Virus record (IMG/VR): IMGVR_UViG_3300017772_000179
Span: 1 to 20,374 of that record
Reading direction: 5' to 3' (one strand)
Length of the DNA stretch: 20,374 nucleotides
Source: a virus
Within the stretch, counting starts at the first letter, position 1, and the number at the start of each line of letters is the position of its first letter. A program made the position numbers and the translations under genes. The notes under the pieces are model-generated. The model was not told the origin of the DNA. It searched no databases and worked only from the letters and a program-made list of their open reading frames with translations. Of this stretch, positions 2,689-7,094 are shown one piece after another.

Positions 2689-2716
2689 CAAGTAATAACA
2701 GTTGGAGCTTGAGCTG

Positions 2717-2965
2717 ATGAAAAAGAGAACACGTAGTTTATTAGAAGAAATTAATAATCTATCTCCCACTAAAGATAGAATTAATATATTAGAATCACGC
2801 GGCACCAATGCCATTAGTGCGATTATGAATGTATTAGAAATGGTGGATGCAAACTACAGTGAACAAGATGCTCAAGATATCCAAAAACGTATAATGCTTA
2901 GTATTAAAAACAGAGATCCTGAACGTTTTAATAGAGGTATTAAAAATCTAAGGAATAAAAAATGA
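2717..2965 (+). CDS. Small helical protein of unknown function
   Basis: I do not recognise this protein. I place the start at the ATG at 2717, nine bases after a GGAG Shine-Dalgarno (2704-2707). The open frame also reaches a TTG at 2702, but that codon overlaps the ribosome binding site and is less likely. The resulting 82 residues are charged, probably all alpha-helical, and end in a lysine/arginine-rich tail (RGIKNLRNKK). It contains no cysteines and no obvious motif. It overlaps the following nucleotidyltransferase gene by ATGA, so it is the first cistron of that group and may act with it. Confidence 0.7.
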   Translation: MKKRTRSLLEEINNLSPTKDRINILESRGTNAISAIMNVLEMVDANYSEQDAQDIQKRIMLSIKNRDPERFNRGIKNLRNKK

Positions 2966-3909
2966 AAATCCAAGATATTGTAGGCACAGTTAAGCGTAAA
3001 GACCGCAATAACAGAAAGCACCGAAAGGTTCAGCCTGACAATTTATATAAAGTTAATGTAAAAAAGCTACACGAAGGCGGTGCAATGCCTGGAGTTGGTT
3101 CAATTCATCATACTGAAATTGATGCTACTATTGATGCATTAGAAAAGTCATTGGGTGTTTCATTAAAAGCAAATGTATTAGGTAGTGTTGGTAAAAAAGA
3201 ATTTAGTGGCGACATTGATGTTGCTATTAATATAAAGCCAGAGCAACTAAAAGACTTTGCAGCAAAATTAGAAGCATCACCGTTAATACAAGATGTTAAA
3301 AAATCAAGTGTTTTTATGACATCAGTTGATATTGTTGGATATGATGCAGCAAATACTAAGCCAGGATTAAACAGAACAGGTAAAGTTCAAATTGACTTTA
3401 TGCCAGGCGATCCAGATTGGATGAAAACATACTACCACAGTCCACATGAAAAAGGATTTGATAAAGAAGGCGGCAAATCAAGCCAATATAAAGGCACTTT
3501 CCGTAATATTATGTTAGCAACAATGGCTGCAATATATCAAGCCAAATCAAGTAGCGAAACAATCGAAGACGGTCGTCCAGTAGAACAACAACGTTGGATT
3601 TGGAGTCCATCGGATGGACTAAATTGGATCTCACGTAAACCTAAGCCAAAAGCAAACGGCGAAGGTTATACAAAAGCAAAAATTGATACAGTATTAAAAG
3701 GCCCAATTAAAAATGCAGATGAAATTGCAAAAGCACTTGGGTTAGACAGTAAAGAAGATTTATATAGCTTTGAAACATTACTAGCAACTATTAAGAAAAA
3801 CTATCCTAGCGATGTTTATGCTAAAGTAGTAGATGCATTTAAAGATAATGGACAAATTCAATCAATGGGTATACCATCAGAATTAGAGGATACGCCAAAT
3901 GAAAATTAA
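2962..3909 (+). CDS. Nucleotidyltransferase (polymerase-beta fold), phage-specific
   Basis: This 315-aa protein carries the hallmark of the polymerase-beta nucleotidyltransferase superfamily. It has Gly74-Ser75, then after eight residues Asp84-Ile-Asp86 (motif GDIDVAI), and a third acidic residue, Asp145, in KVQIDFMPGD. All three metal-binding aspartates are present, so catalysis looks intact. Residues 1-35 are very basic (KRKDRNNRKHRK), suggesting contact with nucleic acid. The region after 200 contains a second helical domain of unknown role. The family transfers nucleotides to RNA, DNA, protein or antibiotics; the substrate here cannot be read from sequence. The gene overlaps its neighbours on both sides (ATGA upstream, 11 bases downstream), which ties it to the ligase-like protein that follows. 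Confidence 0.75.
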   Translation: MKIQDIVGTVKRKDRNNRKHRKVQPDNLYKVNVKKLHEGGAMPGVGSIHHTEIDATIDALEKSLGVSLKANVLGSVGKKEFSGDIDVAINIKPEQLKDFAAKLEASPLIQDVKKSSVFMTSVDIVGYDAANTKPGLNRTGKVQIDFMPGDPDWMKTYYHSPHEKGFDKEGGKSSQYKGTFRNIMLATMAAIYQAKSSSETIEDGRPVEQQRWIWSPSDGLNWISRKPKPKANGEGYTKAKIDTVLKGPIKNADEIAKALGLDSKEDLYSFETLLATIKKNYPSDVYAKVVDAFKDNGQIQSMGIPSELEDTPNEN

Positions 3910-5014
3910 TCAGATTATAATGGAGAAAGCCAGTGGTGCTAGAATCCAACACTTAGAAGATTTAATTATTTGGGACGGCAAAGCAGGTGCCCAAAAAGCA
4001 ATAGCATCATTACACAGTTTAGAAAGCAACCCAAGTGATACAACTATCAAATGGGATGGCTCACCAGCCGTTATCTTTGGTCGCAATGAGAATGGTGAAT
4101 TTGTTCTTACAGACAAAAGTGGATTTGGTGCTAAAGGTTATAATGGCAGAGTAAAATCACCAGACGAAATGGAAGCCATGTTAAAGAACCGCCCAGGTTA
4201 TGCTAAAAACCCACAAGGGTATGGAGACTTTATTGGACAAATGAAAAAAGTTTGGCCTGCATTTGAACAAGCAACACCAAACGATTTCAGAGGTTATGTT
4301 CATGGTGACTTACTTTGGTTTGATACTCCAAGCGAGCAAGAAGGTAGATTGTCATTTATGCCAAATACAACAAAGTATACAGTTGACCCAGCAAGTGATA
4401 TTGGCAAGAAAATTGCTAACAGTAGCGTTGGTGTTGTATTACATGCACATATTGATTTAGAAGGAAATAAAAACAAAGTAGATACTACTAGATTCCAAGA
4501 AGGACCATTGTTAGCAATGCCTCCTGTTTCTATTACAGATGTTCCAGATATTGATAGTCCTAAGTTAGGTGAACTTGAAAGTTTCATTACACAAGCAGGA
4601 AATGATATTGATGCAGTATTGGCTCCACCAGCAGATCTTAAAATGAAAAACTTTCCAGACATTTTATATATGTATATGAATAACCTAGCAAAAACTAGAT
4701 CGGTAAATAGTATTGGTAGCAAACATTTTGTCAATTGGCTAACAGCAGATGGTTCTAAAGTAAGTAAAGCAAAACAAGGTAGACTTGTAGAATACTTAAA
4801 ACAGCACCAAAAAGGTTTAGACGCCGTATTTGCATTTATACGCAGTATAGGACCTATTAAAGATAGCATTATTGCACAACTGGATGCCAATCCAGCTGAT
4901 ATTGAAGCAACAACAGCCGGACAAAAAGGTGGCGAAGGTTATGTAATTGGCAAGGATGTCAAACTAGTAAACAGAGCAGGCTTTACAGCCGCTAATATGG
5001 AAAAGAATAATTAG
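3899..5014 (+). CDS. Ligase/capping-type covalent nucleotidyltransferase-like protein with capsid-targeting-like N-terminus
   Basis: The 371-aa protein shows the motif series of ATP-dependent ligases and capping enzymes. Motif I is Lys51-Trp-Asp-Gly54 (IKWDGSPAVIFGR). A motif III-like stretch is GYVHGDLLWFD (132-142), motif IV is EGYVI (346-350), and motif V is DVKLV with Lys355. About 200 residues separate motifs III and IV. The protein ends 16 residues after motif V, so it lacks the C-terminal OB domain of DNA ligases. It resembles a family of T4-like cyanophages that I recall being labelled DUF6267 (from memory). The N-terminus MKINQIIME-KA resembles the T4 internal-protein signal MKTYQEFIAE, which the prohead protease cleaves after (I/L)xE. 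AMP transfer or nick sealing is inferred, not shown. It overlaps the nucleotidyltransferase gene. Confidence 0.7.
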   Translation: MKINQIIMEKASGARIQHLEDLIIWDGKAGAQKAIASLHSLESNPSDTTIKWDGSPAVIFGRNENGEFVLTDKSGFGAKGYNGRVKSPDEMEAMLKNRPGYAKNPQGYGDFIGQMKKVWPAFEQATPNDFRGYVHGDLLWFDTPSEQEGRLSFMPNTTKYTVDPASDIGKKIANSSVGVVLHAHIDLEGNKNKVDTTRFQEGPLLAMPPVSITDVPDIDSPKLGELESFITQAGNDIDAVLAPPADLKMKNFPDILYMYMNNLAKTRSVNSIGSKHFVNWLTADGSKVSKAKQGRLVEYLKQHQKGLDAVFAFIRSIGPIKDSIIAQLDANPADIEATTAGQKGGEGYVIGKDVKLVNRAGFTAANMEKNN

Positions 5015-5212
5015 ATGTTAAGTAAGCAATGTAAGTTACACTTACACGAAGCAAAAATGACACGTTGGCAACACTTTAAACATGCATGTAGCATTAGTTG
5101 GCGTTTAGAGAAAGCAGCATGGGCAGTATTTTTACATGCACTTGCGCCAAGATACTTTAAAACATACGCAAGTGATACATGTGATGCAATAGCAAAAGAG
5201 AATAAAAAATGA
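5015..5212 (+). CDS. Small protein resembling the DUF6356 family
   Basis: The 65-aa product has a pattern I associate with DUF6356, a small family common in Alphaproteobacteria. It has an N-terminal HLHEA, an aromatic/His segment (RWQHFKHA), then a hydrophobic amphipathic stretch containing FLHALAPRYFKTYASDT, close to the family's HALxPxLFxxTxS core. The role of the family is not known to me. The hydrophobic middle could lie along or cross a membrane. The ATG follows directly on the TAG of the ligase-like gene and the stop overlaps the next start (ATGA), so it is translated as part of the same group. It may be a host-derived gene. The family assignment rests on recalled similarity only. Confidence 0.6.
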   Translation: MLSKQCKLHLHEAKMTRWQHFKHACSISWRLEKAAWAVFLHALAPRYFKTYASDTCDAIAKENKK

Positions 5213-5967
5213 ACGAAAAACAATATACAGCAAAGCAATGGGCAGAACTAGAAGGTGGGCATACTATGAGTGAAGATTCAAAAGAACTTTCATTTATGCA
5301 ATCACTAGGCGAAGCACGTATGTATAAATCAAGACCACAAATTGCTCGTGAAGGTGCCCGTAGTATTACAGATCATGCATTTGTTAGTTTACTAAGTTTA
5401 TATGCAATGAGCCAAGATTATAAATCGGCACCTATTGCTAGTAAATATGCAAAATCAACAATCTCCAGAGGAAGCTTCTCACAACCTAGCCCAGGTGGAA
5501 CAGATCTATATCAAACATTGTTTACATTAAGCAAACCAAAAGGAATGTTTAAAGCAGAAAAAGATACAATGTTAATGGATAAAGTTAACTTTAATCCTAA
5601 TAAGACTAAAGCATTTTTAAGAAGAATGCAATCAGGACAAGTAACACAAAGCGAAGCACAGTCATTCTTTTTTAGATTAGAAAAGGATCTAGCAATACAA
5701 GATCCAAAACTAAAAGCAGCAAGACGCCTAACACAAAATTGGGGTGGATTAACTACAGCACAACGCACACTAGTAGCATCACAACTTGACAGACATTATA
5801 GAGCAAATGCGTTACGTAGCGATATGTATCCATTATTCAAACGATTTGCAAAAAATAATGCCTTAATTGCAGGCAGTGGAACAACTAAGAAAATTGCTAA
5901 ACGTATCGCAAGAGGCGCCGCAGCATTTGCCGTTGGTTACGCAGCTGCTAAAGCCACAGAATTATAA
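5209..5967 (+). CDS. Unknown phage protein with alanine-rich hydrophobic C-terminus
   Basis: I do not recognise this 252-aa protein. It is basic, rich in Ser, Lys and Arg, and contains a helical middle. The C-terminus, from about residue 225, reads KKIAKRIARGAAAFAVGYAA, a cationic stretch followed by a short hydrophobic alanine-rich helix that could be a membrane anchor. Two starts are possible. The ATG at 5209 overlaps the previous stop; the ATG at 5266 (Met20) follows a better Shine-Dalgarno-like GAAGGTGGG at 5251-5259. With the second start the protein begins MSEDSKELSFMQSLGEAR, which contains an LGE-A sequence of the type cut by T4 prohead protease. That is suggestive only. Confidence 0.75.
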   Translation: MNEKQYTAKQWAELEGGHTMSEDSKELSFMQSLGEARMYKSRPQIAREGARSITDHAFVSLLSLYAMSQDYKSAPIASKYAKSTISRGSFSQPSPGGTDLYQTLFTLSKPKGMFKAEKDTMLMDKVNFNPNKTKAFLRRMQSGQVTQSEAQSFFFRLEKDLAIQDPKLKAARRLTQNWGGLTTAQRTLVASQLDRHYRANALRSDMYPLFKRFAKNNALIAGSGTTKKIAKRIARGAAAFAVGYAAAKATEL

Positions 5968-6806: not shown

Positions 6807-7094
6807 ATGATATTGAACGAATCATATAGTAACGTTGTTACAGAAGCTAAGGTAGTATATGCCAGAAGAGGCAAAAGTGTTACTACTAAGTTTAGATGCA
6901 CAGTAGGACCAAGAAAAGGTCGTGTTGTAGCCTCTCCAGCTCAATGTAGCAAACCTATAGATTTAAAAAAGAGATTCGTGCTTAAAAAAACGAGAATGTC
7001 AAAAGGTTCACGTATGATGAAAAAAGCACAAAGAACAAAACGAACTAACCCTCAAAGTAGAGTTGTTAGACAATTAAATAAAGCGAGAAGGTAA
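6807..7094 (+). CDS. Very basic small phage protein, possible internal head protein
   Basis: This 95-aa protein is dominated by Lys and Arg. It has a central FRCTVGPRKGRVVASPAQC segment with two cysteines, followed by a long cationic tail (KKTRMSKGSRMMKKAQRTKR). I recall similar small basic proteins with a GPRKGR-like core in T4-like marine phages, of unknown function. Such charge implies binding to nucleic acid. The N-terminus contains VVTE-A at residues 10-14, a sequence of the kind cleaved by T4 prohead protease, so packaging with the DNA inside the head is possible. That role is inference. The gene sits five bases after the membrane protein gene. Confidence 0.7.
   Translation: MILNESYSNVVTEAKVVYARRGKSVTTKFRCTVGPRKGRVVASPAQCSKPIDLKKRFVLKKTRMSKGSRMMKKAQRTKRTNPQSRVVRQLNKARR

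Follow-up and report, generated by a model that had tools for sequence, protein, structure and literature searches.

Two overlapping genes in a virus record of 20,374 bases (IMG/VR record IMGVR_UViG_3300017772_000179; hereafter the window, that is, the whole stretch of DNA that was analysed) raise the question of what a polymerase-like and a ligase-like protein accomplish side by side in a phage. The upstream gene, here called NT, codes for a protein resembling the nucleotidyltransferases of DNA polymerase family X (PolX; polymerase beta, Pol beta), and the downstream gene, here called LIG, codes for a ligase-like protein of the family DUF6267; an initial annotation had read them as a possible two-enzyme module for processing nucleic-acid ends. 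The pairing of the two genes is real, both proteins model as members of the expected enzyme families, and both mostly begin with leaders ending in the motif (L/I)-x-E. The answer proposed here, held with a confidence evenly poised between acceptance and rejection, is that NT and LIG constitute a DNA fill-and-seal repair module that would be packaged in the head through the leaders and injected with the genome.

2962..3909, + strand: NT, family-X-like (Pol beta) nucleotidyltransferase, 315 amino acids
3899..5014, + strand: LIG, DUF6267 ligase-like protein, 371 amino acids; Pfam PF19782, E 3.3e-32, with model and fold

The two open reading frames (ORFs) share 11 bases, in agreement with the initial annotation.

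Predicted fold and family of NT

3181..3219, + strand: NT motif GS-x8-DID, residues 74-86; D84 and D86 invariant
3394..3396, + strand: third catalytic Asp of NT, D145; invariant

NT holds the three elements of the Pol beta palm that mark DNA polymerase family X, namely GS, D-x-D, and a third Asp, and the complete active site recognised at first is borne out by conservation: the fully invariant columns in 43 aligned rows are G83, D84, D86, Q143, D145, M147, and G219, with G74 nearly invariant and S75 absent from the list. The AlphaFold model (40 sequences) has a predicted local distance difference test score (pLDDT) of 87.5, with residues 1-38 below 50. Foldseek returns 78 matches to this model at E<=0.001 (best 8.4e-06), and the best 50 of these 78 are entries of DNA polymerase beta or lambda, one of them under a title that does not give the type. 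Moreover, VIA aligns residues 45-271 of the model with residues 146-335 of Pol beta, which we take to be the palm and thumb (Z 9.9, root-mean-square deviation (rmsd) 3.3 over 159 residues). The predicted structure of NT is that of a minimal polymerase of the beta/X type, consisting of palm and thumb.

In profile-profile comparison, NT aligns with 14 bacterial PolX proteins over 145 columns (E 4e-05, probability 70) through GS, GDIDV, and the region of the third Asp, and in one fused relative the NT part has a Pfam Polbeta match under the cut-off (E 0.048). The candidate identity of NT as RlaP was ruled out, given no PF10127 match, an hhalign E of 0.28 against three RlaP proteins (a shallower profile), and separate RlaP genes in 3 of the 20 records searched; four other profiles tried gave E-values of 0.011 to 0.84. 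Four profiles searched against the sequences of the PDB gave nothing significant, and the search for cellular relatives returned one contig only, from a planctomycete metagenome-assembled genome, whose neighbouring genes look viral to us.

Predicted fold and family of LIG

4049..4060, + strand: LIG motif I KWDG, with candidate adenylylated Lys51; K51, D53, and G54 invariant in 77 rows
4292..4324, + strand: LIG motif III-like GYVHGDLLWFD, starting at residue 132; D137 invariant
4934..4948, + strand: LIG motif IV EGYVI, residue 346; E346 and G347 invariant
4955..4969, + strand: LIG motif V DVKLV, residue 353; K355 invariant

The motif series from which LIG had been read as a ligase is in place, and K51, D53, G54, D137, E346, G347, and K355 are among the invariant columns of the 77 aligned rows; a motif I lysine followed in order by motifs III, IV, and V is what marks ligases of the covalent nucleotidyltransferase type. 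Motif III of covalent ligases usually has Glu, whereas LIG has Asp (D137). The long stretch first noticed between motifs III and IV measures 209 residues from D137 to E346. The chain ends 14 residues past DVKLV, where the model shows only helix, and LIG therefore leaves no room for a C-terminal oligonucleotide-binding (OB) domain, as had also been remarked.

The only Pfam match of LIG is PF19782 (DUF6267), over profile positions 4-374 of 376, and a literature search on the name DUF6267 found no paper. The AlphaFold model (69 sequences) has a pLDDT of 93.3, with residues 1-13 below 50. Among the 50 VIA matches listed for this model, ligases by title account for 48, and chains of non-homologous end joining complexes, by their length probably ligase IV, account for the remaining two; the best match has Z 7.7 and rmsd 4.0 over 174 residues. 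In the same 50 matches RNA ligases score from 7.7 to 6.2 and DNA ligases from 6.5 to 6.1, differences that are too small to discriminate the substrate of the modelled LIG. The best Foldseek match is a fungal tRNA ligase (E 0.056), followed by T4 Rnl1, DNA ligase III, and REL1, with unrelated helical proteins interspersed and with chains of the African swine fever virus (ASFV) ligase also among the matches. LIG models as a covalent ligase without an OB domain, and the enzyme families first assigned to the two proteins are both upheld by structure prediction, the ligase fold with a weak Foldseek signal.

The DUF6267 proteins of syn9 (148828-149724) and P-SSM4 (151285-152181) span the full profile in about 300 residues, some 90 fewer than those of other cyanophages, and the helical insert between motifs III and IV is perhaps largely missing from them.

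Recurrence of the NT-LIG pair

Confirmed relatives in viral contigs number 548 for NT and 531 for LIG, and the best 80 of each were kept; the resulting loci are best-scoring subsets, so that the window's own kin are over-represented, and some contigs entered twice. Both families occur together in 138 of 204 loci, 104 times as direct neighbours with NT first and the ORFs at most 200 bases apart, 31 times fused in a single ORF (30 NT-first, one reversed), and 3 times further apart. Merging loci with a common protein end leaves 157 groups, 100 with both families (74 separate, 26 fused), 36 with LIG only, and 21 with NT only, some of the single-gene groups being contig ends. This recurrence is far beyond chance, and the pairing that had been surmised from one locus is real, as is attested by adjacency, by fusions, and by three jumbo phages in which NT neighbours a divergent ligase-like gene.

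A quick tree of 77 LIG proteins separates two clades (Shimodaira-Hasegawa-like approximate likelihood ratio test, SH-aLRT, 100). Specifically, NT accompanies LIG in 53 of the 60 representatives that form the window's clade, as a gene of the same locus in 40 and as a fusion in 13, whereas none of the 17 members of the other clade has NT in its locus and 13 have an HxGH or CYX gene. The fused state requires at least five changes on the tree, three of them forced by well-supported branches. NT was also sought in 26 records (10 contigs whose locus has LIG and lacks NT, 13 DUF6267 phages, T4, KVP40, and Aeh1; six of the contigs are shorter than 30 kb) and was found in one, elsewhere on the contig of locus L162 (G014), and in none of the other 25. 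The co-occurrence test suggested at the outset thus gives a divided answer: the expected association is found in the window's clade, and fails in the cyanophage branch, which lacks NT and has another nucleotidyltransferase, while NT also occurs without DUF6267.

The pair lies among replication genes. Where at least 4.5 kb of upstream sequence is available (48 distinct NT+LIG loci), a DnaB-type helicase is encoded within 4.5 kb upstream in 33 loci and a primase in 28. In HTVC008M and three cyanophages, a UvsX/RecA-like protein and a DNA polymerase are encoded near the genes of DUF6267 or NT type, besides primase and helicase.

(L/I)-x-E leaders of both proteins

2962..3075, + strand: NT leader, residues 1-38, predicted disordered (pLDDT <50), ending K-L-H-E before GGAMPG; predicted prohead-protease site after E38
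3899..3925, + strand: LIG leader MKINQIIME; predicted prohead-protease site after E9 (pLDDT <50 for residues 1-13)

In T4, (L/I)-x-E is the cleavage motif of the gp21 protease, and the propeptides that it ends have between 7 residues (Alt) and 65 (gp23) (PMC9026906). The first ten residues of T4 IPIII are enough for targeting, according to the T4 capsid-targeting literature. The predicted leaders that end in this motif at the start of both the NT and the LIG fold are new here.

In NT, [LI]-x-E stands directly before the GG of the domain in 98 of 108 distinct sequences; the ten exceptions are three with another residue for L/I, three with the Met start at that place, three misanchored with the motif a few residues on, and one unclear. 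In 110 of 125 distinct LIG sequences, the motif precedes H-x-E-D by at most 16 residues, and the 15 exceptions comprise 12 with a Met in the region, mostly of cyanophage type, and three with neither. When similar leaders are collapsed, the counts are 93 of 102 for NT (mean of 2.7 in shuffled sequences, maximum 9) and 99 of 114 for LIG (mean 35.8, maximum 51). In all 31 fused ORFs, [LI]-x-E lies at most 16 residues before the LIG domain, which in the 30 NT-first ones places it in the linker after NT. The leader itself varies in sequence and in length, from about 5 to more than 100 residues, and the motif is kept.

Replication enzymes at the same loci have [LI]-x-E in 4 of 41 helicases and 2 of 40 primases, counted within the first 16 residues, a measure that differs from that used for the NT and LIG leaders. 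Among the virion-type neighbours, the motif is found by the same first-16-residue measure in 42 of 60 g252, 54 of 69 g95b, 29 of 55 g254, and 14 of 59 g155 proteins, and in 68 of 69 products of the small gene preceding NT. The leaderless NT proteins of jumbo phages start with MGGAAF or MGGRAF, with Met at the place of E38; that of PA5oct starts with MSGNAF and is missed by the leader pattern.

A gp21-type protease was not seen in the window fragment itself. A close relative of 112 kb (G005; NT 93% and LIG 96% identical) encodes a T4-type gp21 (E 2.4e-19), gp23, and gp20, and its gp23 has L-S-E in the N-terminal region (SYLSE-SAAAG), near the T4 site but not column-aligned with it.

Two observations touch on the same motif. 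The downstream window genes 6807-7094 and 5209-5967, whose relatives have [LI]-x-E close to the N-terminus in 54 of 69 and 42 of 60 cases, are candidates for further packaged proteins. In L098 (3838-6864) and similar loci (L099, L104, L120, L121), long ORFs end in NT and resemble, in their N-terminal part, the gene following NT in L021, and in L098, L099, L104, and L121 [LI]-x-E stands just before NT, as in a processed polyprotein.

Other partners of NT and LIG

In cyanophages, DUF6267 overlaps a gene annotated as cytitidyltransferase, on which PF01467 scores above the cut-off in S-WAM1 and below it in ACG-2014j; a literature search for that name together with phage found no paper. PHROG 455 covers both the DUF6267 and the HxGH (CTP_transf_like) domains, and a true fusion of the two is present in L196 (5293-7224). 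NT, LIG, and HxGH genes are consecutive in L147 (7106-7747), and NT lies beside a large HxGH protein in 6 of the 25 loci that have NT and lack LIG (L021, L111, L112, L113, L118, L126). From these patterns of adjacency and fusion it follows that NT, LIG, and the HxGH enzyme combine pairwise. A further DUF6267 protein, in L050 (7176-8231), is fused or overlaps with an HxGH cytidylyltransferase-like domain.

NT without a DUF6267 match is found in the jumbo phages PA5oct, Phosso, and Atu_ph07, which encode upstream of NT a protein with the series KLDG/KIDG...EG-x-V...K. Against a profile of these three sequences, LIG matches around motif I only (E 1.8e-5, probability 78); Pfam RNA_ligase matches the Atu_ph07 copy below the cut-off (E 9.8e-4) and the Phosso copy at E 0.085, and gives no match to that of PA5oct. 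Phosso (PV764938.1) has two copies of NT, at 330084-330575 and 118659-119138.

A common nuclease-like third component upstream of LIG, comprising PHROG 13937, the cyanophage CYX, and HTVC008M P0003, was considered and is not claimed because PHROG 13937 matches neither CYX nor P0003 (hhalign E 0.028 and 0.071). The PHROG 13937 family itself, found near NT or LIG in L022 (10335-11420), L053 (5049-5990), and L002 (6644-7660), has a conserved FGG...E...D...SxK that suggests, by eye and unconfirmed, a PD-(D/E)xK nuclease.

Ligase content of related phages

A census of 19 phage records, chosen partly for carrying DUF6267 or NT, counted DUF6267 in 13, PF01068 (ATP-type DNA ligase) in 7, PF01653 (NAD+-type) in 2, and PF09414 (RNA ligase) in 7. 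T4, KVP40, and Aeh1 have PF01068 and PF09414 without DUF6267. Conversely, none of PF01068, PF01653, and PF09414, the ligase families searched, has a match in ten DUF6267 genomes, namely nine Kyanoviridae (HTVC008M, S-WAM1, ACG-2014j, P-SSM2, P-SSM4, syn9, Syn1, S-CAM9, S-CAM4) and cyanophage MED4-213; these are close to one observation because they are mutually related. A host ligase may serve these ten phages, and it is possible that LIG replaces the phage DNA ligase in Kyanoviridae, which raises the direct question of which ligase T4-like cyanophages use. A general substitution of LIG for the phage DNA ligase in all NT-LIG phages is untenable, because PF01068 is present in 5 of 15 long contigs (L081, L090, and L097 with NT and LIG, L111 and L119 with NT but no LIG) and accompanies DUF6267 in 3 of 13 genomes (XG4, DLP_6, Vibrio phage 2.275).

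Proposed function and its alternatives

The fill-and-seal chemistry is proposed because of the predicted folds and the pairing, and DNA is the more likely substrate of NT-LIG because of the PolX similarity and the replication neighbourhood; packaging of both proteins we infer from the leaders. In such a mechanism, NT would act in the manner of a DNA polymerase X and extend the 3' end at a break or gap by one or a few nucleotides, and LIG would load AMP onto Lys51 from a nucleotide cofactor, hand it to the 5'-phosphate, and then seal the end. By analogy with the T4 internal proteins and Alt, both precursors would be built into the prohead core via their leaders, which a gp21-type protease would trim to give a mature NT beginning with GG. 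NT and LIG would then be delivered with the genome and mend gaps, nicks, and breaks of the incoming DNA before new protein synthesis. A broader version is offered tentatively and is more probably wrong than right: a head-delivered NT and LIG kit, or an NT-LIG polyprotein split by the prohead protease, would mend the incoming genome before phage expression, and the leaderless cyanophage DUF6267 would be the phage's own missing ligase. Under this proposal, DUF6267, an uncharacterised family, and the NT family, which has no Pfam match, acquire a function that can be tested, and PolX-ligase coupling would gain an example from bacterial viruses. If the leaders act as in T4, the two proteins would be a virion-delivered polymerase-ligase pair; to our knowledge no such pair is known, and none was found in a literature search judged by titles and abstract openings.

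Several observations weigh against a packaged DNA repair module. NT itself has no Pfam match, including to the PolX profiles PF14792 and PF14791, and has no intact YFTGS, the aligned place holding YYH[SA]P, an insert, and then S-x-YKG. The LIG model has no Foldseek match at E<=0.001, its best VIA Z of 7.7 falls where, according to the tool, models that have no clear relatives commonly score, and DNA ligases rank no higher than RNA ligases. LIG without NT and NT without LIG both exist, the helicase neighbourhood is found in 2 of 10 loci with NT but no LIG versus 15 of 25 with LIG but no NT, and at least three NT+LIG contigs also encode an ordinary DNA ligase. As for the leaders, [LI]-x-E occurs within the first 16 residues of 257 of 810 background ORFs, the shared ancestry of the relatives makes the leader counts interdependent, and cyanophage LIG and jumbo-phage NT have no leader. 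The depositors' label 'structural protein, ESI-MS/MS' on the PA5oct NT homologue may reflect contamination, because 14 of the 22 features of that stretch, including ribonucleotide reductase, carry the same mass spectrometry label; the PA5oct ligase-like gene is unlabelled.

The strongest competitor keeps the same enzymes and has them made and used only in the infected cell at replication, the leader being a linker, a constraint on the start region, or an element of translation control. The replication-gene neighbourhood and the leaderless cyanophage members fit this explanation, which is quite possible but the less probable of the two, as the motif is kept despite the variation of the leader, is rare in the helicase and primase of the same loci, is replaced by Met at the Glu position in leaderless NTs, and recurs in the downstream g252 and g95b. 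RNA repair, in which NT would restore nucleotides at a cleaved tRNA or RNA end and LIG would seal it, like RlaP with an RNA ligase, is rather unlikely. The trypanosome editing pair of TUTase and REL1 offers a comparable working mode, RNA ligases head the VIA matches of LIG (Naegleria Z 7.7, REL1 7.0, T4 Rnl2 6.8, Trl1 6.8), the LIG counterpart of Atu_ph07 approaches Pfam RNA_ligase, and the RlaP-RNA ligase pairing is a published concept (PMC7824862). Nevertheless, NT resembles PolX and not RlaP, which some of the same phages encode separately, most RNA ligases exceed the DNA ligases by about one Z unit or less, and the genes neighbour primase and helicase, joined in HTVC008M and the three cyanophages by the UvsX/RecA-like protein and DNA polymerase.

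It is improbable that LIG, instead of being a nucleic-acid ligase, uses AMP or another nucleotide to modify a protein or small molecule, with NT and the HxGH enzyme as alternative nucleotide-handling partners. The HxGH fold often makes nucleotide cofactors, DUF6267 adjoins or fuses with that domain, and LIG combines the lack of an OB domain with a long helical insert. Conversely, the listed VIA matches are ligases that join nucleic acid ends, the NT partner is polymerase-like, and the three canonical ligase families were not found in the ten DUF6267 genomes of cyanophages or pelagiphages. Least probable, NT and LIG would be catalytically dead structural proteins of the head with retained folds; virion-type neighbours and leaders would suit such a role, but the catalytic residues are among the invariant columns of both families.

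Comparison with known systems

Polymerase and ligase are fused or cooperate in bacterial LigD and in ASFV PolX with the ASFV ligase, whose sequence families are unlike NT and LIG; the polymerase of LigD has the archaeo-eukaryotic primase fold. The initial statement that no pairing of this kind had been described does not hold, as RlaP with RNA ligase (PMC7824862) and PgVPolX (PMC5537341) are already in print. PgVPolX of Phaeocystis globosa virus resembles the NT-LIG fusions in that a large DNA virus encodes a single chain with a Pol-beta-like core followed by a ligase, and it was shown to fill and seal gaps (PMC5537341). In contrast, its ligase is of the NAD+-dependent type, whereas LIG matches only DUF6267 in Pfam, its polymerase part has recognisable PolX homology and belongs to a eukaryotic virus, whereas NT-LIG comes from bacterial viruses, and the accessible part of that report mentions no head-targeting leader (PMC5537341). 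The RlaP and RNA ligase genes of jumbo phages likewise set a Pol-beta-superfamily nucleotidyltransferase beside an ATP-type ligase in large phages (PMC7824862); RlaP and NT are set apart by the profile E of 0.28 and by separate RlaP genes in 3 of 20 records. The NT and LIG sequence families differ from both RlaP/RNA ligase and PgVPolX.

LIG is a member of DUF6267 (PF19782, PHROG 455, 'T4-LIKE GC 71'), a family without a described function in which the window's clade pairs with NT and the cyanophage clade with the HxGH enzyme. The T4 internal proteins and Alt have, like NT and LIG, a short N-terminal leader ending in L/I-x-E, which gp21 cuts after 7 residues in Alt and about 10 in IPII and IPIII (PMC9026906, PMC9958956). 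The T4 head cargo, as described in the accessible parts of these two papers, includes no polymerase or ligase, and the packaging of NT and LIG is a prediction from their leaders.

Gene neighbourhood in the window

2702..2965, + strand: small gene directly 5' of NT, 87 amino acids; TTG start as listed, ATG at 2717; PHROG 11854 'virion structural protein', E 3.9e-21

The small gene overlaps NT by 4 bases, and a relative of it lies upstream in 47 of the 48 distinct NT+LIG loci. The window further encodes a primase, a DnaB-type helicase, virion-type genes, and two tRNA genes, with ribonucleotide reductase genes further along, as read by eye from the translations. No polynucleotide kinase, as in the T4 Pnkp/Rnl1-type set, was matched among the window genes scanned, which are only some of those of the fragment, and sites like the T4-type late promoter (TATAAATA) are no more frequent than chance. 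A gene of the nitroreductase family (PF00881, E 1.2e-05) is present in this phage at 10724-11428, and the DUF6356 gene at 5015-5212 (PF19883, E 1.1e-09) lies directly 3' of LIG in several, though not all, close relatives.

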